Origin: Acidobacteriota bacterium
GTDB taxonomy: Bacteria; Acidobacteriota; Vicinamibacteria; Fen-336
Assembly: GCA_022340585.1 (NCBI GenBank)
Contig: JAJDNS010000053.1
Span: 1 to 64,000 of the forward strand
Length of the DNA stretch: 64,000 nt
Reading direction: 5' to 3'
Shown: positions 9,278-54,178 of the stretch, piece after piece
Numbering within the stretch: position 1 is the stretch's first letter
Layout of the letters: the number at the start of each line of letters is the position of its first letter
Notes under the pieces: model-generated
The model's database searches: none
What the model was told of the DNA's origin: nothing
The model's input: only the letters and a program-made list of their open reading frames with translations
Position numbers and translations under genes: made by a program

Positions 9278-10147
9278 TCAGTCGATGATCACCGTGTACC
9301 GGGGCGAGCCGGCCGCGGCCGCGCCCAGCTCCGGGGCCCGGTCCGGGGGACGGTTGCCTGCCTCGCGATGGAAGTAGATCAAGTGCAGGGCGATGGCCTC
9401 GTTCCTCTGATACTCGTCGAACGTCGTTCCCCGGCCCTCGGCCGGTGTCATGACATCGCCCACGTCCGGGGAGTGGGCCAGGCCGATGATGTGCCCCATC
9501 TCGTGCAGGAAGGTGTTGTGGTAGCTGGAGCCCGGTCCCCCGGTGATCTCCTGGCGATTGACGAAGGAGATGGTGCCGCCGGTGATCGTCGCCCCCCGGA
9601 ACGAGAGACGGGCCTCGGCGACCGCCTGCAGGTCGGCCACGCTCGGGTCGACTTCGATGTGGACCTCGCCCCCGGCGCCGATCGCGGCCTGGAGCCCGGT
9701 GCGGCGCTGGATCTCGTCGAGGACTTGCCGGGCCCGGGAGCGGACGGCGCCGTCGTTGGCCAGGGCGCCGTCCAGGGTCAGGGTGAAGGAGGGCTGGTCC
9801 CAGCGCACCATGCGGAAGGAGCCGTCTTCGAACTCCCAGTCGTAGACCAGCTCGCGCACGTACGCCGGCTGGGCCGGCCACAGGGCGATGGGCTCGAGCT
9901 CGTAGCGCTGCTCACGGGCCAGAAACCCCGAAGCACGGACGACGACCCCCTGCCCGAGGCCCACGATGGGGGGGGTGGCCTCGGCCGCCACCGGCTGCTC
10001 GTTCCACCCGTTGATCACCTGGGGCGCCTCGGCCGCCGGTGTGGGAGTGGGCGTGGGCTGGGGAGTCGGGTTCGAGGGCGAGCCCCCGCAGCTCCAGCTG
10101 AGGACGAGGGGTCCGGCGACGGCGATCAGCAGCAACACTCGCTTCAT
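9278..10147 (-). CDS. matrixin-like zinc metalloprotease, probable lipoprotein
   Basis: This 289-aa protein begins with a hydrophobic signal ending in SWSCGGS, followed by a Pro/Thr linker (PTPQPTPTPTP). That pattern is typical of a lipid-anchored protein, although the lipobox is not canonical. The catalytic centre is complete: HEMGHIIGLAH gives His215, Glu216, His219 and His225, and VMTP after it is the Met-turn of metzincins. The start is the ATG next to a GGAG-type ribosome site. It lies 120 bp downstream of the DUF2063 gene on the same strand and could be the last gene of the bufferin operon. Its substrate is unknown. Confidence 0.85.
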   Translation of the reverse strand: MKRVLLLIAVAGPLVLSWSCGGSPSNPTPQPTPTPTPAAEAPQVINGWNEQPVAAEATPPIVGLGQGVVVRASGFLAREQRYELEPIALWPAQPAYVRELVYDWEFEDGSFRMVRWDQPSFTLTLDGALANDGAVRSRARQVLDEIQRRTGLQAAIGAGGEVHIEVDPSVADLQAVAEARLSFRGATITGGTISFVNRQEITGGPGSSYHNTFLHEMGHIIGLAHSPDVGDVMTPAEGRGTTFDEYQRNEAIALHLIYFHREAGNRPPDRAPELGAAAAGSPRYTVIID

Positions 10148-10267
10148 GTGACGCTCCGCGTTGATTGTCGACCCGACGGGCGCCGCCTGCAAAGCGCACG
10201 TCGCCGGTACCGGGAATTCGCCGGCACGGCGAGCCGGCCACGCGCGGGCCGCCGTCCTTGCGGGCAG

Positions 10268-11104
10268 CTAGAGCTCGACTCCCCGGAACGCTGCGGCCCG
10301 GGCCCACTCGCGGAACCAGGCGAAGACCTGGTCGCCGGAGGGGCGGGGGCGTGAGCGCCTCAGGCACTCCTCGACGGCCTCGCCGACCGTCAGACCTTCG
10401 GCCAGCCCCGAGAGGAGGCGGAACGCCGGCCGCGTGAGGGGCACGCGGTAGACGGCGTAGTCCCGGCGACACACCGCGACCCACGAGGGGCGGCGGCGCG
10501 GGAGGGGATGGTCGTGGTCGTCGCCCCGAAGCGAGTCGAGGTAGAGCCCGGCGTTGTAGTCGAGGGCCAGGAGCCGGAAGGCGGCGGTCGGAACGAGACG
10601 CGCCCGTTCCCAGGCGTCGGGCGGGACGGCGGCCAGGTTCTCCTCGGTCAGCGTCGGGGTCTCGGGGGCGTCGAAGGCCTCGGTGATCGCCCACTCCAGG
10701 CGGGCCAGGTCGCGGCAGAAGCCGGCGTGCGAGATCCGTGGCGCGCGGGACACGTACTCGGCCAGCTCGCGTCCCAGGACGTTCAGGGTGTAGCTGCGCG
10801 AGGGGTGGGCCTCGACGTAGCCCCGGACGAGCCGACGCCACCGCTGCGGCCCGAGGAAGTGGGCGAGACCGGGGTAGTCGGTCTCCAGGGCCTCCTCCAT
10901 GCGGAGGAGGTACATGTCGTGGTAGATCCCCACCCGCTCCGCCGGGGCCAGGGTCTTCGAGGGCAGGACGACGTCGCCCAGGCGGTCCGGAGCAACCAGG
11001 GAGGCCGCCTCGGAGGACGCCAGGGCCTGGCCGGTGCGTCCGGGATGCACGATCACGCTCTGCATCCAGCGTTGCAGGCCTCCCAGGGCCAGGCTAGGCG
11101 CCAT
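10268..11104 (-). CDS. bufC: DUF2063 protein, BufC/HvfC-type partner of a DUF692 enzyme
   Basis: This 278-aa cytoplasmic protein has an N-terminal DUF2063 domain: LGGLQRWMQSVIVHP, then ERVGIYHDMYLLRMEEAL, DYPGLAHFLG and YVEAHPSRSYTLNVLGREL. In bufferin/Hvf operons this protein recruits the precursor peptide to the DUF692 enzyme. The C-terminal half carries RVPLTRPAFRLLSGLAEG, a winged-helix-like segment common in this family. Its ATG overlaps the end of the DUF692 gene by 11 nt, so translation is coupled. The symbol is given by family and context. Confidence 0.85.
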   Translation of the reverse strand: MAPSLALGGLQRWMQSVIVHPGRTGQALASSEAASLVAPDRLGDVVLPSKTLAPAERVGIYHDMYLLRMEEALETDYPGLAHFLGPQRWRRLVRGYVEAHPSRSYTLNVLGRELAEYVSRAPRISHAGFCRDLARLEWAITEAFDAPETPTLTEENLAAVPPDAWERARLVPTAAFRLLALDYNAGLYLDSLRGDDHDHPLPRRRPSWVAVCRRDYAVYRVPLTRPAFRLLSGLAEGLTVGEAVEECLRRSRPRPSGDQVFAWFREWARAAAFRGVEL

Positions 11105-11942
11105 GGGTCCCCGTCGCGGCGGCAGCCCGCCGATGGAGGTGCGCCCGGCGGGCCTCGAGGACCACCTGGTCGAGGGGCGGGATGTCCGCGTCCCACTCGA
11201 AGAGCGTGGAGACGAGCCCGGTGCGGGCGGTGGCGCGCGCGTAGAGGGCCCAGACCTCCTCGAGGGCCGGCCCGCTGTGGGTGTCGACGATGTGGGTGCC
11301 CTTGTTCGTGTGGCCGGCCAGGTGGTACTGCACGACGCGATCGGCGGGAATCGCGTCGATGTACCCCTCGGCGCTGAAGCCGTGGTTGAACGCGCTCACG
11401 TAGACGTTGTTGACGTCCAGGAGAAGGCCGCAGTCGGCCTCGGCAGCCAGCCGGGCCAGGAAGTCCCACTCCGTGATCGTCGAGGACGCGAAGGCGAGGT
11501 AGGTCGACGGGTTCTCGAGAACCAGGGGCCGCTCGAGAACGTCCTGCACCTCCCGCACCCGTGCGATCACGTGGCGCAGCGTGGCCTCGTCGTAAGGCAG
11601 CGGAAGGAGGTCGTGGGTGTTGCGGCCGAGAACGCCCGTCCAGCAGAGGTGGTCGGACACCCAGTGGGCGTTCGTGCGCTCGGCCAGCCCCTTGAGCTTC
11701 CGGAGGTAGCCGTGGTCGAGGGGATCGGTGCTGCCCACGGACAGCGAGACCCCGTGCAGGGCCACCGGATAGCGCTCGGCCACCTGGTCGAGGATGAAGA
11801 GCGGGCGCCCCCCGGTGTCCATGTAGTTCTCGGACAGGACCTCGAACCAGTCCACCTCGGGCGCGCCCGAGAGGATCTGGCCGAAGTGCACGGGGCGGAG
11901 GCCGATGCCGACCCCGAGGTCAGGTATGCCGAATCGGTTCAT
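11094..11942 (-). CDS. bufB: DUF692 multinuclear iron oxidase, BufB/HvfB type
   Basis: Family knowledge: DUF692 enzymes (MbnB, TglH, BufB/HvfB) use a two- or three-iron centre and O2 to modify cysteines in a precursor peptide. This 282-aa protein has the full-length TIM-barrel features: GVGIGLRPVHFGQIL, WFEVLSENYMDTGG, ALHGVSLSVGSTDPL, WVSDHLCWTG, LENPSTY, LLLDVNNVYVSA and HLAGHTNKGTHIVDTH, which contain the His, Asp and Glu metal ligands. The start is the ATG after GGGAGG. It follows the Cys-rich precursor and overlaps its DUF2063 partner. No MbnC or TglI gene is present, so this is the bufferin branch, not methanobactin. Confidence 0.92.
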   Translation of the reverse strand: MNRFGIPDLGVGIGLRPVHFGQILSGAPEVDWFEVLSENYMDTGGRPLFILDQVAERYPVALHGVSLSVGSTDPLDHGYLRKLKGLAERTNAHWVSDHLCWTGVLGRNTHDLLPLPYDEATLRHVIARVREVQDVLERPLVLENPSTYLAFASSTITEWDFLARLAAEADCGLLLDVNNVYVSAFNHGFSAEGYIDAIPADRVVQYHLAGHTNKGTHIVDTHSGPALEEVWALYARATARTGLVSTLFEWDADIPPLDQVVLEARRAHLHRRAAAATGTHGA

Positions 11943-12005
11943 GAGTGCGCCTCCCGAGGGCCGCGACCCGGCGCGGGCCGCGGCCCCCACGAGAGACCGG
12001 GGCGA

Positions 12006-12362
12006 TCAGGCGTCCTTCAGCGGAACCGCGCAGCCGCCCTTGCCCTTGCAGGAGTTCTTGCCGGCGCAGCCGTTGTCGCCCGACTTGCAGCCACCCTGGC
12101 CCTTGCACTCGTTCTGGCCCTTGCACTCGTGATGCGAGGCGGTGGCACAGCCGCCCTTGCCCTTGCAGGAGTTCTTGCCGGCGCAGCCGTTGTCGCCCGA
12201 CTTGCAGCCCCCCTGCCCCTTGCACTCGTTGTGGCCCTTGCAGGCGTGCTTCGCGCCCCCCTCGGACTCCTCGCCGGCGGCCAGCTTCGTGCTGGCGGCA
12301 AGCCCGGCTCCAAGTCCGGCGACGGCGGCACCCATGACCTTCGTGAAATCTCTGCGCTTCAT
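12006..12362 (-). CDS. bufA: BufA2-type Cys-rich bufferin precursor, internally duplicated
   Basis: This 118-aa precursor has a Tat signal (KRRDFTK then GAAVAGLGAGLAAS), so it should be exported folded after modification. The mature part has 12 cysteines at 41, 47, 53, 60, 66, 72 and 80, 86, 92, 99, 105, 111, forming two 6-Cys modules with identical 6-6-7-6-6 spacing, each built of CKGxNxCKGxGGCK and CAGKNSCKGKGGC. Bufferins bind metal, chiefly copper, after the DUF692 enzyme converts cysteines to thiooxazoles; that chemistry here is inferred from family. The start follows AGGAGG. The next genes on the same strand are the DUF692 enzyme and its partner. The two modules are near-identical at DNA level, so the duplication is recent or under gene conversion. 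Confidence 0.92.
   Translation of the reverse strand: MKRRDFTKVMGAAVAGLGAGLAASTKLAAGEESEGGAKHACKGHNECKGQGGCKSGDNGCAGKNSCKGKGGCATASHHECKGQNECKGQGGCKSGDNGCAGKNSCKGKGGCAVPLKDA
12027..12242 (-). repeat. tandem 99-bp duplication inside bufA
   Basis: The 99-bp segments 12144-12242 and 12027-12125 encode the two 6-Cys modules and differ at only a few bases (for example CCA/CCC and GTTCTGG/GTTGTGG in top-strand reading). They are separated by 18 bp encoding TASHHE. The frame is kept. Confidence 0.9.
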
Positions 12363-12487: not shown

Positions 12488-12510
12488 TTGAAAACGAGTG
12501 CCAGTTTCAA
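12488..12510. promoter_or_regulatory. Fur-box-like 23-bp palindrome
   Basis: The arms TTGAAA and TTTCAA frame an imperfect palindrome centred at 12499. By eye it matches the well-known TTGAAAATGA.../...TCATTTTCAA type of Fur box at 18 of 23 positions. It lies in an AT-rich island between the divergent bufA (126 bp away) and PQQ dehydrogenase (98 bp away) genes and could control either. Metal-responsive control by a Fur-family protein is inference. Confidence 0.5.
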
Positions 12511-12608
12511 TCTATTCCCTTCTTCCTCGGGTGCTGGCCCGGAGCCGACCGGCTCCGGGACCCGGGGAGCTTGCCCAGGGCCCCCGCGAGCTTCTATCCT
12601 CCCCCGCC

Positions 12609-45744: not shown

Positions 45745-46821
45745 TCAGACGATTCGAATCGAGTGGCTCTTCACCGCGAGCCACACATCGCGGCCCGGCG
45801 CAAGATCGAGGGCAGCCACGGCGGCGGGAGTGACGCGGGCCATCAGCTCACCGCCGCCGTTCCCGAGGGCGCCGCGGAGGACGACGTCGGGACCGGTGCG
45901 CTCGAGGGCGACGATCCGGGCCGGGTAGACGTTTCGGGCGGAGAGCCCTTCGACCGGCGCCCTGCAGACGAGGATGTCCTCCGAGCGGACGGCGAGTGTG
46001 ACCGCCGCCCCCACCCCTCGATCCGCGGCCAGGGTGATGGAGACATCGAAGCCCGCGTTGGTCCGGACGCGGGTGATGCCGCCGGCGGTGTCGTGGGTGA
46101 CCACGTGTCCGGGCAGGAGGTTCTCGATGCCGGCTTCGGCCTCCCCCACGACCGCGGGGGACGAGAGCAGCGCGCGCGGCTCGCCTTCCGCCTCCACTCG
46201 GCCGCCGTGGAGCACGACCAGGTGGGAGGCCACGGCCAGGGCCTCGCCCACGTTGTGGGTGACGTAGAGACACGGCAGCGTCCACTCGTCGCGGACTCGC
46301 AGGAGCCAGGGCAGGATCCGCTCGCGCAACCCGGGATCGAGCGCGGCCAGCGGCTCGTCCAGCAGAAGGAGCCGGGGACGGATGGCGAGGGCGCGGGCCA
46401 GGGCCACCCGCTGCCTCTCGCCTCCCGAGAGTAGCCGGGGGCTCCGGGACAGAAGCGGACGGATCTCCAGGGTGTCGATCGCGGCCTCCACGGCTTCGGC
46501 GTCCGACCGCGATCCGAAGCGCACGTTCTCGACCACCGAGAGGTGGGGGAACAGACCGGCATCCTGCGGCACGTAGCCCACCCGCCGTCGCTCGGGAGGC
46601 AGTGCGACTCCGCCCGCGCTGTCGAGCAGGACGTCGGGCCCGACCACCACCCGTCCGCGAGCCCGGCGCCGCAGGCCCGCGATGGCCTCGAGGAGGGACG
46701 TCTTGCCGGCTCCGGAGGGTCCCATGACCGCAGTCACACCGCCCGGGAGCTGCGTCTTCACTCGCAGGGTGAACCCGGGCAGGTCGATGGCGAGGTCGAC
46801 GTCGAGGGCGCGCGTGCTCAT
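45745..46821 (-). CDS. modC: molybdate ABC transporter ATP-binding protein
   Basis: This 358-aa protein energises molybdate import at the inner membrane. It has Walker A GPSGAGKTS, signature LSGGERQRVALARAL, Walker B LLLLDEPLAALD and the switch His in YVTHN. The C-terminal third carries a TOBE-type molybdate-sensing domain ending LAVKSHSIRIV. Its ATG overlaps the modB stop (ATGA). It is the last gene of modABC. ATPases for sulfate or thiosulfate look similar, but the modA and modB neighbours decide the assignment. Confidence 0.92.
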   Translation of the reverse strand: MSTRALDVDLAIDLPGFTLRVKTQLPGGVTAVMGPSGAGKTSLLEAIAGLRRRARGRVVVGPDVLLDSAGGVALPPERRRVGYVPQDAGLFPHLSVVENVRFGSRSDAEAVEAAIDTLEIRPLLSRSPRLLSGGERQRVALARALAIRPRLLLLDEPLAALDPGLRERILPWLLRVRDEWTLPCLYVTHNVGEALAVASHLVVLHGGRVEAEGEPRALLSSPAVVGEAEAGIENLLPGHVVTHDTAGGITRVRTNAGFDVSITLAADRGVGAAVTLAVRSEDILVCRAPVEGLSARNVYPARIVALERTGPDVVLRGALGNGGGELMARVTPAAVAALDLAPGRDVWLAVKSHSIRIV

Positions 46822-47495
46822 GTCTCGTCCCCGCGCACCCGGCGGCGGACGATCCACTCCGTCGTCCAGAGGGCCACGAAGGACAGGCCCACCGTCACCG
46901 CGGCGAGACCCAACGCTCGATCGTCTCGGCCGATCTGCACGTCGTGAAAGATGGCGAGGGCCAGGGTCTGGGTGCGGCCGGGGATGTTCCCCGCGACCAT
47001 GATCGTCGCCCCGAACTCGCCGAGGGCCCGCGAGAACGCCAGGACGGTTCCGGCCAGAACGCCGCGCCGGGCGAGGGGAAGGGTGATGCGGAAGAAGGCG
47101 GCGACCGGTCCCGCTCCGAGGGTGCGGGCCAGTCCGACGAGGCGGGGGTCGACCTCCTCGAACGCGGTCCGGGCCGAGCGGACGAGAAGCGGGAACGCCA
47201 TGACCGCGGTGGCGAGCACGACCGCCTTCCAGGTGAAGACGATCTCGATGCCCCGCTCCGCCAGCCAGACGCCGAACGGACGGTTCCGGGCGAGAAGCTC
47301 GAGGAGAAGAAAGCCGACCACCGTCGGCGGAAGGACGAGGGGCAACGAGAGGAAGGTGTCGAGGGCGCCCTTTCCCGGTCCCTGGTAGCGCGCGAGGAGG
47401 AATGCTGCCGCCACCCCGGGAATGAGAATGACGGCGGTGGCGAGGGCCGCCATCTCGACGGTGAAGACGACGATCCGCAGCTCCTCCGCGCCCAA
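46818..47495 (-). CDS. modB: molybdate ABC transporter permease
   Basis: This 225-aa inner-membrane permease has five to six helices and the EAA-type loop ARTLGAGPVAAFFRITLPLARRG. ALDTFLSLPLVLPPTVVGF is the ModB family block. The TTG start, 5 bp after the modA stop, gives the usual ModB length; the next ATG (residue 16) would cut into the first helix. The ribosome site is weak. It lies between modA and modC in the usual order. Confidence 0.9.
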   Translation of the reverse strand: MGAEELRIVVFTVEMAALATAVILIPGVAAAFLLARYQGPGKGALDTFLSLPLVLPPTVVGFLLLELLARNRPFGVWLAERGIEIVFTWKAVVLATAVMAFPLLVRSARTAFEEVDPRLVGLARTLGAGPVAAFFRITLPLARRGVLAGTVLAFSRALGEFGATIMVAGNIPGRTQTLALAIFHDVQIGRDDRALGLAAVTVGLSFVALWTTEWIVRRRVRGDET

Positions 47496-47500
47496 GATCG

Positions 47501-48280
47501 CTACCGTCCGTCGAGGGGCTCGAAGCCGAGCCGGGTGAAGACGGCCCGCGCGTCCGGGGATTGCAGGTATTCGAGGAAGGGGAGCGCCGAGGAGGATCTC
47601 GAGGAGGCGATCACGGCGGCCGGATAGACGATGCGCGGGGCCTGTTCGGCGGGGACCTCGAAGGCAACACGAGCGCGCTGGGCGATGGCCACGTCGCTGC
47701 GATAGACAATCCCCGCCTCGGCCGCCCCTGACTCCACCGCGGCCAGGGCCGCCCGCACGTCGAGGGTGGGAACCACGCGGTCGCGCAGGCGCTCCCACAG
47801 CCCGCGGCCCTCGAGCCACTGGCGGGCGTATATGCCGGCGGGGACCGCTTCGGGGTCTCCGAGGGCGAGGCGACGCGCGCGCTCCAGGTCCCGGGGTTGC
47901 GTCACGACGAGGTCCGAGGCGGCGCCCACGACGACGACGAGGCGGTTCGACAGCAGGCTCAGCCGGTCGGCCGACCGGACCAGGCCCACCTGCTCGAGCT
48001 CGTCCATCCGGGCGATGTTGGCGGAGACGAAGACGTCGGCCGGCGCCCCGGCCCGGATCTGGCGGGCGAGGGCGTTGGACCCCGCGAAGCTGAAGAGGAC
48101 TCGCACTCCGGTGCGCGCCTCGAAGCCGGCTCCGATCTCACCCAGGGCGTCGGTGAGGCTGGCCGCCGCGAACACCAGCAGCTCCGGGCGGGAATGGGTC
48201 GCAGGTCCCGGGCTCTCCGCCGCCGTCGCCGCGGTGAGGGCCGTGACCGCGAGGGTGACGATCGGCGCGATTGCTCGCAT
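47501..48280 (-). CDS. modA: molybdate-binding periplasmic protein
   Basis: This 259-aa substrate-binding protein has a signal peptide (IAPIVTLAVTALTAATAA). The family blocks are VFAAASLTDALGEI, FSFAGSNALARQIRAGAPADVFVSA and AAVESGAAEAGIVYRSD; the Ser residues in the first two contact molybdate. It delivers molybdate to ModBC. It starts 3 bp after the homoserine dehydrogenase stop, so it is probably transcribed from that gene's promoter. Confidence 0.93.
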   Translation of the reverse strand: MRAIAPIVTLAVTALTAATAAESPGPATHSRPELLVFAAASLTDALGEIGAGFEARTGVRVLFSFAGSNALARQIRAGAPADVFVSANIARMDELEQVGLVRSADRLSLLSNRLVVVVGAASDLVVTQPRDLERARRLALGDPEAVPAGIYARQWLEGRGLWERLRDRVVPTLDVRAALAAVESGAAEAGIVYRSDVAIAQRARVAFEVPAEQAPRIVYPAAVIASSRSSSALPFLEYLQSPDARAVFTRLGFEPLDGR

Positions 48281-49372: not shown

Positions 49373-49999
49373 CTATCGGCCCCAGAGCTCCTTCAGCCGG
49401 CGGTCGCGACCACAGCCGGTGCGGTACGAGTGGTAGCGTAGGAAGTTCTTCTTGTAGAAGTTCTGGTGGTACTCCTCGGCCGGATAGAACGCGTCGAGGG
49501 GCGTGATCTGGGTGACGACCTTCCCGGGCAGCAAACCTGATTCCTCGAGGCGCTGCTTCGAGGCCTCGGCGGCGGCCTTTTGCTCCGTCCCCTCGTAGAA
49601 GATGCCCGTCCGGTACTGGCTTCCCCGGTCGCAGAACTGTCCTCCCCCGTCGAGGGGGTCGACGTTGCGCCAGAACACCTCGAGAAGCTGCTCGTACGTG
49701 ACCTTCCCGGGGTCGTAGACGACCTGGATGGCCTCGGCGTGCCCGGTCACCCCGGACGACACCTGCTGGTAGCTCGGGTTCTTCACGCTTCCGCCAGCGT
49801 AGCCCGAGGTCGTCGAGATCACCCCGGGGACCTCGTCGAAGGGCGCCTCCATGCACCAGAAGCACCCCCCGGCGAAGGTGGCGCGGGCGGTCTGCTCGGG
49901 CGGCGCCTCCACGGGTTCCGCCCCCGAATTCGGGTCGGCCAGGAGTGAGAGGGCGCCGAGTCCCAGGCCCACGGCGAGAAACAGCAGTCGCAGCTTCAT
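49373..49999 (-). CDS. msrA: exported peptide-methionine (S)-S-oxide reductase
   Basis: This 208-aa enzyme repairs oxidised methionine. A signal peptide (LLFLAVGLGLGALSLLA) places it outside the cytoplasm, unlike most MsrA. The catalytic Cys46 is in GGCFWCMEAPF; GYAGG, GHAEAIQVVYDP and GSQYRTGIFY complete the family pattern. Extra cysteines (Cys49, GQFCDRG and RTGCG near the C-terminus) are candidates for resolving disulfides, which would need a periplasmic reductant. GGAG lies before the start. It is downstream of the Rrf2 regulator after 72 bp. Confidence 0.93.
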   Translation of the reverse strand: MKLRLLFLAVGLGLGALSLLADPNSGAEPVEAPPEQTARATFAGGCFWCMEAPFDEVPGVISTTSGYAGGSVKNPSYQQVSSGVTGHAEAIQVVYDPGKVTYEQLLEVFWRNVDPLDGGGQFCDRGSQYRTGIFYEGTEQKAAAEASKQRLEESGLLPGKVVTQITPLDAFYPAEEYHQNFYKKNFLRYHSYRTGCGRDRRLKELWGR

Positions 50000-50071
50000 G
50001 TTCGGCTCCGTTTTCGAGTCCTCAATTCACAACGGCCAGTGGGTCCGAAATATTCCCACGGGGGGACCGGG

Positions 50072-50553: not shown

Positions 50554-51099
50554 CTACATCAGCCCCAGCTGGAGCCGCGCCCCGTCGGACATCATGCTCT
50601 GGTCCCAGGGTGGGTCGAGGACGACCTCGACCTCGGCCTCGGCGACGGAGGGGATGGACAGCAGCTTCTGGCGGACGTCCTCCCGCAGGAAGTCGCCCAT
50701 CCCGCACCCCGGCGCGGTCAGGGTGAACGCGACGTTGACCTTCTCCTTCCCGTCCTCGAGGGCCTCGACCGCGCACCTGTACACGAGCCCCAGGTCCACG
50801 ATGTTCACCGGGATCTCCGGGTCGAAGACGGTCTTGAGCTGCTCCCAGGCCACCTCCTCGGTGCTGCGCCCGGCCACGTCCTCGGCGGTCATCGGCTTCG
50901 TCGGCTGCTCGCCGATGGCGTCGGCGTCGGTGCCCTCGATCCGGACCAGATAGCCGTGGTCGGTCATGGCGGTGTACGATCCGCCGAGGGCCTGGGTCAC
51001 GTAGACCGTCGTCCCCATGGTCAGGGTGAGACGATCGCCGTAGGGGATCGCCGCCACCTCGACGTCGCGGGAAAGGGTCCGGGGCTCGCGGGCAACCAT
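50554..51099 (-). CDS. sufT: SufT, MIP18/DUF59-type Fe-S assembly factor
   Basis: This 181-aa protein has an N-terminal domain of about 80 residues typical of the long SufT subfamily (VYVTQALGGSYTAMTDHGYLVRI), then the DUF59/MIP18 domain with TVFDPEIPVNIVDLGLVY, TLTAPGCGMGDF (conserved Cys) and VVLDPPWDQSMMS. SufT helps Fe-S cluster maturation or transfer. It lies between sufU (6 bp) and the Rrf2 regulator (2 bp). Confidence 0.92.
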   Translation of the reverse strand: MVAREPRTLSRDVEVAAIPYGDRLTLTMGTTVYVTQALGGSYTAMTDHGYLVRIEGTDADAIGEQPTKPMTAEDVAGRSTEEVAWEQLKTVFDPEIPVNIVDLGLVYRCAVEALEDGKEKVNVAFTLTAPGCGMGDFLREDVRQKLLSIPSVAEAEVEVVLDPPWDQSMMSDGARLQLGLM

Positions 51100-51105
51100 G
51101 CCGGG

Positions 51106-51567
51106 CTACTCCGTGCTCGCCCCGGCCTCGCCCTCGAGCGCTGCCTTCATGGTGTGCCAGGACAACGAGGCGCACTTGACTCTCATCGGGAACTCGCACA
51201 CTCCGGAGAAGACCGCGAGCTTGCCCAGCTCGGAGCCGGCGGGGGCGTTCTCCGCGGCGTGGCTCGGGTCGGACGTGACGAGGCGGTGGAACCGGTCGAA
51301 GAGGTCCTTCGCCTCGTCGACGGTCTTGCCCCGGAGGGCGTCGGTCATCATCGAGGCCGAGGCCGTCGAGATCGAGCAGCCCGCCCCCTGGAAGCTGACG
51401 TCCTCGATGACGTCTCCCTCCACCTTCAGGTACACGGTGATCCGATCGCCACACAGTGGGTTGTGCCCGTCCGCCTGGTGACTGGCCCCGGGCATCTCGC
51501 TGAAGTGGCGGGGACGCTTCGAGTGGTCGAGGATGACCTCCTGGTAGAGCTCGCGGAGATCTTCCAT
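51106..51567 (-). CDS. sufU: SufU, zinc-dependent sulfur acceptor
   Basis: This 153-aa protein accepts persulfide sulfur from SufS and passes it to SufBCD. It has the SufU-type zinc site: HNPLCGDRI, GAGCSISTASASM and SGVCEFPMRVKCASLSWH. The insert between the second and third Cys (about 60 residues with LFDRFHRLV) separates SufU from IscU. It follows sufS by 36 bp, the usual SufSU pairing, which removes the need for SufE. Confidence 0.94.
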   Translation of the reverse strand: MEDLRELYQEVILDHSKRPRHFSEMPGASHQADGHNPLCGDRITVYLKVEGDVIEDVSFQGAGCSISTASASMMTDALRGKTVDEAKDLFDRFHRLVTSDPSHAAENAPAGSELGKLAVFSGVCEFPMRVKCASLSWHTMKAALEGEAGASTE

Positions 51568-51603
51568 TTCAGCGGCTCCCTCCCCGCTCCCGGTCTTTCG
51601 TCG

Positions 51604-52857
51604 TCACTTGAACATCTCCTGGACCTTGCGGATTCCCCGGGCGAGCACGTCGAGGTCCTCCCGGTTGTTGAAGCAGGCGAGGGAGGCGCGCGCGGTGGCC
51701 GGAACGCCGTAGCGGTCCATGACCGGCTGGGCGCAGTGGTGCCCGGTACGGATCGCCACGCCCTCGTAGTCGAGGATCGTCCCGATGTCGTGGGGGTGGA
51801 TGTCGTCGAGGACGAACGACAGGATCCCCGCCTTCCGGGGGGCCGTGCCGATCAGCCTGAGCCCGGGGATGGCGGAGAGGAGGTCGGTGCCGTAGCGCAG
51901 CATCTCGTCCTCGTGAGCCGCGACGGCCTCGAGACCCACATCCTCCAGCCACTCGAGCGCCGCTCCCAGGGCGATGGCCCCGGCGATGTTGGGCGTTCCC
52001 GCCTCGAACTTGGCCGGGATCTCCGCCCAGGTCGACTTCTCGAAGGTGACGGTGGTGATCATGTCTCCGCCGCCCTGCCAGGGTGGCATGGCCTCGAGCA
52101 CTTCGGCCCGCCCGTAGAGCGCGCCGACACCGGAGGGGCCGTACACCTTGTGGCCGGAGAAGGCGTAGAAGTCGCAGCCGATCTTCCGCACGTCCACCGG
52201 GGTGTGGGGCACGGCCTGGGCCCCGTCGATCATCACCACCGCGCCGGCGGCGTGGGCCAGCTCCGTCATCCGCTTCACGGGGTTGACGGTCCCGAGGGCG
52301 TTGGAGACATGCGAGAGGGAGACGATCCGCGTCTTCGGGCCGAGCAGGCGCTCGAAGGCCCCCATGTCCACCACGCCCGCGTCGTCGATGGGGGCCACCC
52401 GCAGGACCGCGCCCTTCTCCTCGCACAGCATCTGCCAGGGGACGATGTTGGAGTGGTGCTCGAGGCCGGTGATGAGAACCTCGTCCCCGGCGGCCACGTG
52501 CTTCCGGCCGTAGGTCTGGGCCACGAGGTTGATGGCCTCGGTGGCCCCACGCAGGAGGATGATCTCCCGCACCTCGGGGGCCCCGAGGAAGCGCTGCACC
52601 CGGGCCCGCGCCTTCTCGTAGGCGTCGGTGGCCATCACCGACAGCTTGTGCACACCCCGGTGGATGTTCGAGTAGTAGCGCTCGTAGACCTCGCGCTCGG
52701 CGTCGATCACCGCCTGCGGCTTCTGGGCGCTGGCGGCGCTGTCGAGGTAGACGAGAGGCTTGTCGTGGACCCTGGTCCGCAACCCCGGGAACTGCCGTCG
52801 CACGGCCTCCACGTCCAGGGCCGCGGGGGCCGGAGCGGGACTGGCTGAAGCGTTCAT
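51604..52857 (-). CDS. sufS: cysteine desulfurase SufS
   Basis: This 417-aa PLP enzyme takes sulfur from cysteine. The PLP Lys is in DFYAFSGHKVYGPSG, the active Cys in RTGHHCAQPVMDRYG. GATEAINLVAQTYG and ITGLEHHSNIVPWQ are the other family blocks. It has an N-terminal Ala/Pro-rich extension of about 12 residues. The ATG overlaps the sufD stop, so synthesis is coupled. Confidence 0.95.
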   Translation of the reverse strand: MNASASPAPAPAALDVEAVRRQFPGLRTRVHDKPLVYLDSAASAQKPQAVIDAEREVYERYYSNIHRGVHKLSVMATDAYEKARARVQRFLGAPEVREIILLRGATEAINLVAQTYGRKHVAAGDEVLITGLEHHSNIVPWQMLCEEKGAVLRVAPIDDAGVVDMGAFERLLGPKTRIVSLSHVSNALGTVNPVKRMTELAHAAGAVVMIDGAQAVPHTPVDVRKIGCDFYAFSGHKVYGPSGVGALYGRAEVLEAMPPWQGGGDMITTVTFEKSTWAEIPAKFEAGTPNIAGAIALGAALEWLEDVGLEAVAAHEDEMLRYGTDLLSAIPGLRLIGTAPRKAGILSFVLDDIHPHDIGTILDYEGVAIRTGHHCAQPVMDRYGVPATARASLACFNNREDLDVLARGIRKVQEMFK

Positions 52858-54178
52858 GCGATCGCCTCCTCGACCAGGGCCGCCCCCTTCAGGCGCGTCT
52901 GCAGGTGTCGCTGCACGGCCCGGCGCAGCGACGGCACCGGGAGATCGTGGACGAGGTCGCTGGCGAAGGCCCACGTGAGCAGGCCCCGCGCCTCGTCCTC
53001 CCCGATGCCGCGGGAGCGCAGGTAGAAGAGCGCTCTGGGGTCGAGCTGGCCGGTGGTCGAGCCGTGGCGGCACTTGACGTCGTCGGCGAGGATCTCGAGC
53101 TGGGGCACGGAGTGGACGAGGGCCTCCGGCGAGAGCAGCAGGTTCCGGTTCATCTGCTCGGCATCGGTCCGCTGGGCCCCGGGCCGCACCAGCACGAGCC
53201 CGTTGAAGACGCCGCGAGCCCTCTCGCTCAGGACGCCCTTGTAGAGCTCACGGCTCGAGCAGTGTGGCCGGGCATGATCGACTCGCGAGTGCGTGTCAGC
53301 GAGGCGGGTCCCGTCGACCAGGAACAGGCCGTCCAGGACACACTCACCCCCCTCCGCCGCGAAACGCACGTCGATGTCGTTGCGGCTGATCGCGGCCCCG
53401 AAGGTGAAGGAGTGGTCGGCGAAGCGGGCGTCCCGGCCGAGCCGCGCGGCCAGGGTGGCGACGTGAAACCCCTGCTCGCCTTCCTGCTGCAGCTTGTAGT
53501 GATCCACGAAGGCGTTGTCTTCCACCGCCACCTCGGTCACCGCGTTGACGAGGTAGGCGGGGCCCTCGGGACCGGCGAAGGTCTCCAGGATCCGGCCCTC
53601 GCTGCCCCGACCGGCCACCACGAGCACACGGGAGTAGGAGACCGGCGCCGAGCCGGTCCCGGTGGCGACGTGGGCCAGGTGCAGCGGCTCCTCCAGGATG
53701 GTCCCGGGGGTGAGGAAGACGACCACCCCGTCGGCCGCAAAGGCAGCGTTCAGATCGGCGAAGACGCTCGCGTGCACCCCCTGGACCTCGCCCAGGAGTG
53801 GCTCGAGGCGCTCGGGTCGGGAGCCCAGAAGCTCGCGCAGGCTGTGGACCTCCACCGCGGGGTCGTCGGGATCGAGGCTCGACAGCTCCGGCGAGTAGCG
53901 ACCGTCCACGAGCACGACCTGTCCCGATCCAGACAGGGGCGGGGCCACATCGTCCGGCACGGCCGCGGGGGGCTCGACCGGCTCCCAGAGTGTGCGGGTG
54001 ATCGGGGCGATCGGTGTCTGGCGCCAGGCCTCGTCCCGGGGGCCGGGGAGGCCCTTCTCGACGAAGCGAGCGAAGGCGGCGGCCCGGCGCTCGCGTTGCC
54101 AGTCGGGCTCGGCCACGCTCGCCCCGACGAAACGCTCGAAGCTCTGCCGGTAGGCCTCCTTCTCTTCGACAACTGCGG

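Follow-up and report, generated by a model that had tools for sequence, protein, structure and literature searches.

A Buf2-type bufferin operon with a twelve-cysteine, double-module precursor and a predicted ECF-type promoter in an Acidobacteriota genome

Bufferins of the Buf2 class (BufA2, NF050166) have a cysteine-rich core and an exported precursor and are encoded in the gene order bufABC. Six cysteines are present in 90% of Buf2 precursors and twelve in the rest, the 12-Cys form having duplicated 6-Cys domains (PMC12452194). In captophorins, which are thiooxazole metallophores, the Cys-Lys group combines an MNIO enzyme, a DUF2063 partner and Cys-Lys motifs (PMC13097082). In Caulobacter, the ECF factor sigma-F controls MNIO-DUF2063 operons (Buf1) and the gene for a YedY-type protein (PMC3511200). 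Ecf of Neisseria controls msrAB and a DUF692-DUF2063-DoxX operon (PMC2954202), as does RpoE2 of Haemophilus in a hypochlorite-inducible system (PMC7907618).

The locus described here lies in a window of 64,000 nucleotides, the whole stretch of DNA that was analysed, from a Vicinamibacteria-type Acidobacteriota genome. Among named genomes, its closest relatives are MAGs of Acidobacteriota, several of which carry the label Vicinamibacteria. As judged from family models and gene order, it is a Buf2 bufferin operon, bufABC, and it shares with the described Buf2 systems the cysteine-rich core, the exported precursor, the gene order and the two 6-Cys domains. The following features were assigned:

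12006..12362 (-): bufA, BufA2-type (Buf2, Buf_6/12Cys) bufferin precursor, 118 aa, 12 Cys; assigned by NF050166 and sequence
12270..12362 (-): Tat-type signal peptide of BufA (MKRRDFTKVMGAAVAGLGAG...), approximate extent, with a conserved GxxxG in the hydrophobic stretch
12144..12242 (-): bufA module 1 (CKGHNECKGQGGCKSGDNGCAGKNSCKGKGGCA)
12027..12125 (-): bufA module 2 (CKGQNECKGQGGCKSGDNGCAGKNSCKGKGGCA)
11094..11945 (-): bufB, MNIO (DUF692) bufferin maturase; NF050167, 361.3 bits, cut-off 310; PF05114
10268..11104 (-): bufC, DUF2063 partner protein (putative PME type 1); PF09836, 67.2 bits, cut-off 27.2

BufA matched NF050166 (NCBIfam BufA2) with 68.7 bits against a cut-off of 60, and the same model was matched by all 38 aligned relatives. 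With NF050167 and PF09836 also above cut-off, the preliminary description of a bufferin accompanied by a DUF692/DUF2063 pair was upheld. Partners of PME type 1 combine DUF2063 with an RRE-type C-terminal domain; BufC additionally gave a weak match to NF050145 (residues 53-268, below cut-off), and a sequence search of BufC against the PDB returned no match. Alignment of BufB to PDB 3bww showed that the motifs HGxSLS, SDHL, LDVNN, HxAGH and DTH were kept, together with the catalytic Asp in EWD, a residue whose role in MNIO enzymes has been described (PMC13097082). This Asp was found in an EWD motif in 72 of the 76 collected BufB proteins and in an ERD motif in three, which form a separate branch; one was unread. 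The residue that follows it is uniformly Asp in the Cys-Lys group of captophorins (PMC13097082), whereas it is Ala in the window BufB and Ala, Glu, Gln or Asp among relatives. Ala at this position was considered as an oddity of the window protein and rejected, being common in relatives.

The bufC and bufB genes overlap by 11 nt. In the window, as in most relatives, bufA, bufB and bufC adjoin one another, and the start of bufB lies approximately 50-280 bp after bufA. This contiguity argues against export of BufA as an unmodified, metallothionein-like thiol protein with BufB and BufC acting on something else, a reading we hold to be quite unlikely even though certain bufferin precursors elsewhere are encoded without a linked MNIO gene (PMC12452194) and several relatives were without BufB within the retrieved stretch. 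Beyond bufABC, the only conserved neighbour found was a 3-keto-disaccharide hydrolase gene, in the sister species. A predicted exported, matrixin-like protein (PF00413) is encoded at 9278-10192 (-), directly downstream of bufC, and was not found near bufABC in relatives.

The start codon of bufA (ATG, 12362) is preceded by the ribosome-binding site AGGAGG. The cysteines of BufA are located at positions 41, 47, 53, 60, 66 and 72 and at positions 80, 86, 92, 99, 105 and 111, giving the spacing 6-6-7-6-6 twice with 8 between the two modules. The two equally spaced modules noticed at the outset are thus present in the 118-aa, 12-Cys reading frame 12362-12006 (-), and their designation as exactly duplicated holds for the cysteine spacing and fails for the DNA, the 99-nt modules being identical at 94/99 nt and 32/33 aa. 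At the DNA level, the repeat extends over 12028-12136 and 12145-12253 (109 nt, 93%). Each 6-Cys module is composed of two 3-Cys half-modules, C-x-G-x-N-x-C-K-G-x-G-G-C, and the core can therefore be described as a four-fold repeat of the half-module; four half-modules were found in 66 of the distinct relatives examined. In the window precursor, the last Cys of each module directly follows KGKGG, unlike in published Buf2 precursors. Only eight of the twelve cysteines stand in the Cys-Lys context described for this class, which bears on the doubling of potential modified-cysteine sites proposed at the outset. AlphaFold modelling of the precursor core gave no usable fold (mean pLDDT 43), and a sequence search of the precursor against the PDB returned no match.

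Relatives were gathered from related genomes and, in addition, from named genomes. When module number was compared among them, the two-module layout proved widespread, with at least two perfect modules in 77 of 90 distinct precursors. Two-module precursors, in most cases directly followed by bufB and bufC, were found in Acidobacteriota, Planctomycetota, Pseudomonadota, Vulcanimicrobiota and one Actinomycetota record, and the position-specific flanks (CAT-x-x-H between the modules and CAVPxK at the end) are common to the genus, family, order and other phyla. The 12-Cys double-module form is already known, since duplicated 6-Cys Buf2 precursors have been published (PMC12452194), and a double module is ordinary for Buf2. 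Other relatives carry degraded modules, or additional half-modules at the N- or C-terminus. Three-module precursors with 18 core Cys occur in one Planctomycetota MAG and one unclassified MAG (L106:4995-5483 and L131:4815-5414). In five relatives (L034:5866-6276, L040:5992-6399, L108, L116 and L125), at least two Cys have been lost from one or both modules with the rest kept; these constitute natural variants for asking which cysteines matter.

The preliminary description attributed the near-identical DNA to recent duplication or gene conversion. A tree was built from 148 modules. Of its 45 cherries, 36 joined modules of the same position across genes, five joined both modules of one gene and four were mixed; position labels required 31 changes compared with 50 in shuffles, few forks being well supported. 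Dozens of relatives, belonging to several phyla, have the two-module layout, and modules cluster by position; the duplication of the bufA module is therefore old, with occasional homogenisation. A recent tandem duplication in the window lineage as the source of the second module would be in keeping with the 94/99 nt identity and with the use of the same codon at 28 of the 32 residues common to the modules, where local codon usage would give 20.2 (P ~7e-4). We nevertheless regard it as very improbable: the layout and flanks extend to other phyla, modules cluster by position, and the distance between modules within bufA (5 nt) is only slightly under that to the sister species (10-12 nt). Of the earlier proposal, recent duplication was hence abandoned, and gene conversion, weakly shown, was retained as possible.

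The codon identity exceeds expectation, and the similarity of the modules is accordingly greater than protein constraint and codon bias would give. An old duplication followed by recent gene conversion between the bufA modules in the window lineage would account for this excess, and is in line with the more frequent agreement of module residues 6, 18 and 25 within genes than between random genes and with the five same-gene cherries, which include the sister species. Against such an event, module residue 4 still differs (His/Gln) between the modules as it does across the family, the synonymous mismatch within the gene (4/32) is only a little smaller than that to the sister species (6-8/31), and 99 nt resolves few forks; we give it slightly less than an even chance. 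An assembly artefact, conceivable in a draft genome of 231 contigs, was rejected as the origin of the doubled module and is considered practically negligible, because the layout recurs in dozens of independent assemblies and the copies differ at 5/99 bases. The preferred reading remains an old duplication common to several phyla, in which near-identity would be kept by selection, perhaps with occasional gene conversion.

The N-terminus of BufA, MKRRDFTK, contains a Tat-like RRxF. With one exception (L050, MKRRDAGVLM), the 12-Cys-type precursors from this family and order whose N-terminus is complete begin with a Met-proximal RRxF, and RRxF was found near the Met in 9/10 Pseudomonadota loci. 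Planctomycetota precursors mostly carry a lipobox or a lipobox together with RRxF, and other relatives carry neither. TatC is encoded in the genome (235 bits); TIGR01409 gave no match to BufA. The Tat export signal proposed initially is thus backed by a Tat-like N-terminus conserved in the clade. In this the window precursor would differ from published Buf2 precursors, for which Sec and lipoprotein signals are described and Tat is unmentioned (PMC12452194). In the hydrophobic stretch (window about 12303-12317), G16 is invariant and G20 more than 90% conserved among the 38 relatives, and the resulting GxxxG persists whether the signal is of the Tat, the lipoprotein or another type. The signal peptide has been suggested to be part of BufB-BufC recognition (PMC12452194), and retention of GxxxG despite differing signal types suggests that it may be recognised by the BufB-BufC maturation complex.

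When aligned with the sister species, the DNA upstream of bufA is diverged apart from a conserved block. This block matches the ECF-type promoter GGGAATR-N15/16-CGTT, in contrast to published Buf2 clusters, in which no sigma genes were found (PMC12452194). The corresponding features are as follows:

12493..12519 (-): predicted ECF-type promoter GGGAATAG-N15-CTCGTT region, approximately 130 bp upstream of bufA
50031..50057 (-): same predicted ECF-type promoter, upstream of msrA
49373..49999 (-): msrA, exported peptide methionine sulfoxide reductase A, predicted to be co-regulated; TIGR00401, 196.9 bits, cut-off 108.1

In the 6.26-Mb genome, GGGAATR-N15/16-CGTT occurred at nine sites and in the reversed control at none. 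Three of the nine precede bufA, msrA and an ECF sigma gene, respectively, and the other six are inside long reading frames. The sigma gene, on contig C109 of the source genome (G000; L172:5127-6451), has a zf-HC2 anti-sigma gene behind it. In nine of 11 family genomes (G000, G001, G003, G004, G007, G009, G011, G012 and G013), a correctly oriented promoter site precedes bufA, reading TGGAAT in G009 and ending 229 bp before the start in G003; it was absent in G006 and G008. Upstream of the sigma/anti-sigma pair, GGAAT-N17-CGT was located at nearly the same place for orthologues in 9/9 genomes. A site upstream of msrA was present in five genomes (G000, G001, G007, G012 and G013), and the MsrA orthologues of G003, G004 and G010 were without one. 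A DoxX gene in G004 also carries the promoter site; in the source genome, no DoxX gene adjoins the window operon and none of its six DoxX genes has the promoter just upstream.

Two other candidate elements were rejected. The canonical ECF -35 element GGAAC showed no enrichment, and a palindromic operator upstream of bufA, TTGAAAC...GTTTTCAA, was limited to the window and the sister species and overlaps the ECF-type site. Directly upstream of msrA, genes for SUF-type Fe-S assembly (SufS-like, SufU-like and DUF59/FeS_assembly_P) and an Rrf2-like regulator are located at 50554-53073 (-). Molybdate ABC transporter-like genes (ModA/ModB-like) at 46818-48280 (-) were identified by eye only.

The promoter sequence of bufABC is the same as that upstream of the putatively autoregulated sigma gene, placing the operon in the ECF regulon at the sequence level. 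We infer that the ECF factor controls its own gene, bufABC and msrA; this pairing is drawn only from the sequence they have in common, and other ECF promoters are similar to GGAAT/CGT. Because its promoter is shared with the ECF pair and with an exported MsrA, damage to the envelope by oxidation or metals probably triggers production of the bufferin. YedY (MsrP) is a methionine sulfoxide reductase. Msr and MNIO genes are coupled in Caulobacter, Neisseria and Haemophilus by other ECF factors, and the match with the arrangement here supports a function in oxidative or metal stress of the envelope. The parts differ: sigma-F of Caulobacter uses the promoter GTAACC-N16-CGAA and the anti-sigma factor NrsF, compared with GGGAATR-N15/16-CGTT and a zf-HC2 anti-sigma factor here, and a search for NrsF in 15 genomes of this group gave none, the Caulobacter control being positive. 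Neisseria and Haemophilus, from a different phylum, have EGKCG/oxazolin-type precursors and a fused MsrAB, in contrast to the Buf2-type precursor and stand-alone exported MsrA encoded here.

For the operon as a whole, the following sequence of events is proposed. Transcription of bufABC would start from the ECF-type promoter that also precedes the genes of the putatively autoregulated ECF sigma factor with its zinc-finger anti-sigma factor and of the exported MsrA. BufC (DUF2063) would present the BufA precursor to BufB (MNIO), which would oxidise some of its cysteines to 5-thiooxazoles in the cytoplasm, most likely at the eight Cys-Lys sites. The modified bufferin would leave via Tat and act as a periplasmic metal buffer of the copper type, the duplicated module providing more ligand per exported chain. 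This explanation in its entirety, a bufABC operon encoding a 12-Cys Buf2 bufferin that would serve as a Tat-exported metal buffer within an ECF stress regulon, is proposed with considerable confidence. Its observed parts are the sequence, the family assignments, the operon, its distribution and the conservation of the promoter, whereas the chemistry of modification, the metal, export by Tat and the match of sigma factor to promoter are inferred.

The evidence for a regulon joining bufABC and MsrA is new; an earlier report of a Tat-type or ECF-controlled Buf2 system may exist beyond open-licence texts. The promoter common to bufABC, the ECF factor and MsrA gives a concrete prediction of when the peptide is made. 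The natural series of precursors with degraded modules, two modules plus additional half-modules, two modules or three modules offers a set for relating Cys number to metal capacity, and is equally suited for asking how far the processing of one BufBC pair reaches. In Acidobacteriota, the predicted regulon would repeat with different parts the coupling seen in Caulobacter, Neisseria and Haemophilus. We lean, with somewhat better than even expectation, to the view that in Acidobacteriota a fourth ECF sigma regulon, differing in promoter and in type of anti-sigma factor, links a bufferin operon with the repair of methionine sulfoxide in the envelope, and that Tat exports an already modified, possibly metal-loaded RiPP. 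If true, MNIO metallophores would form a general branch of the defence against oxidative or metal stress of the envelope.
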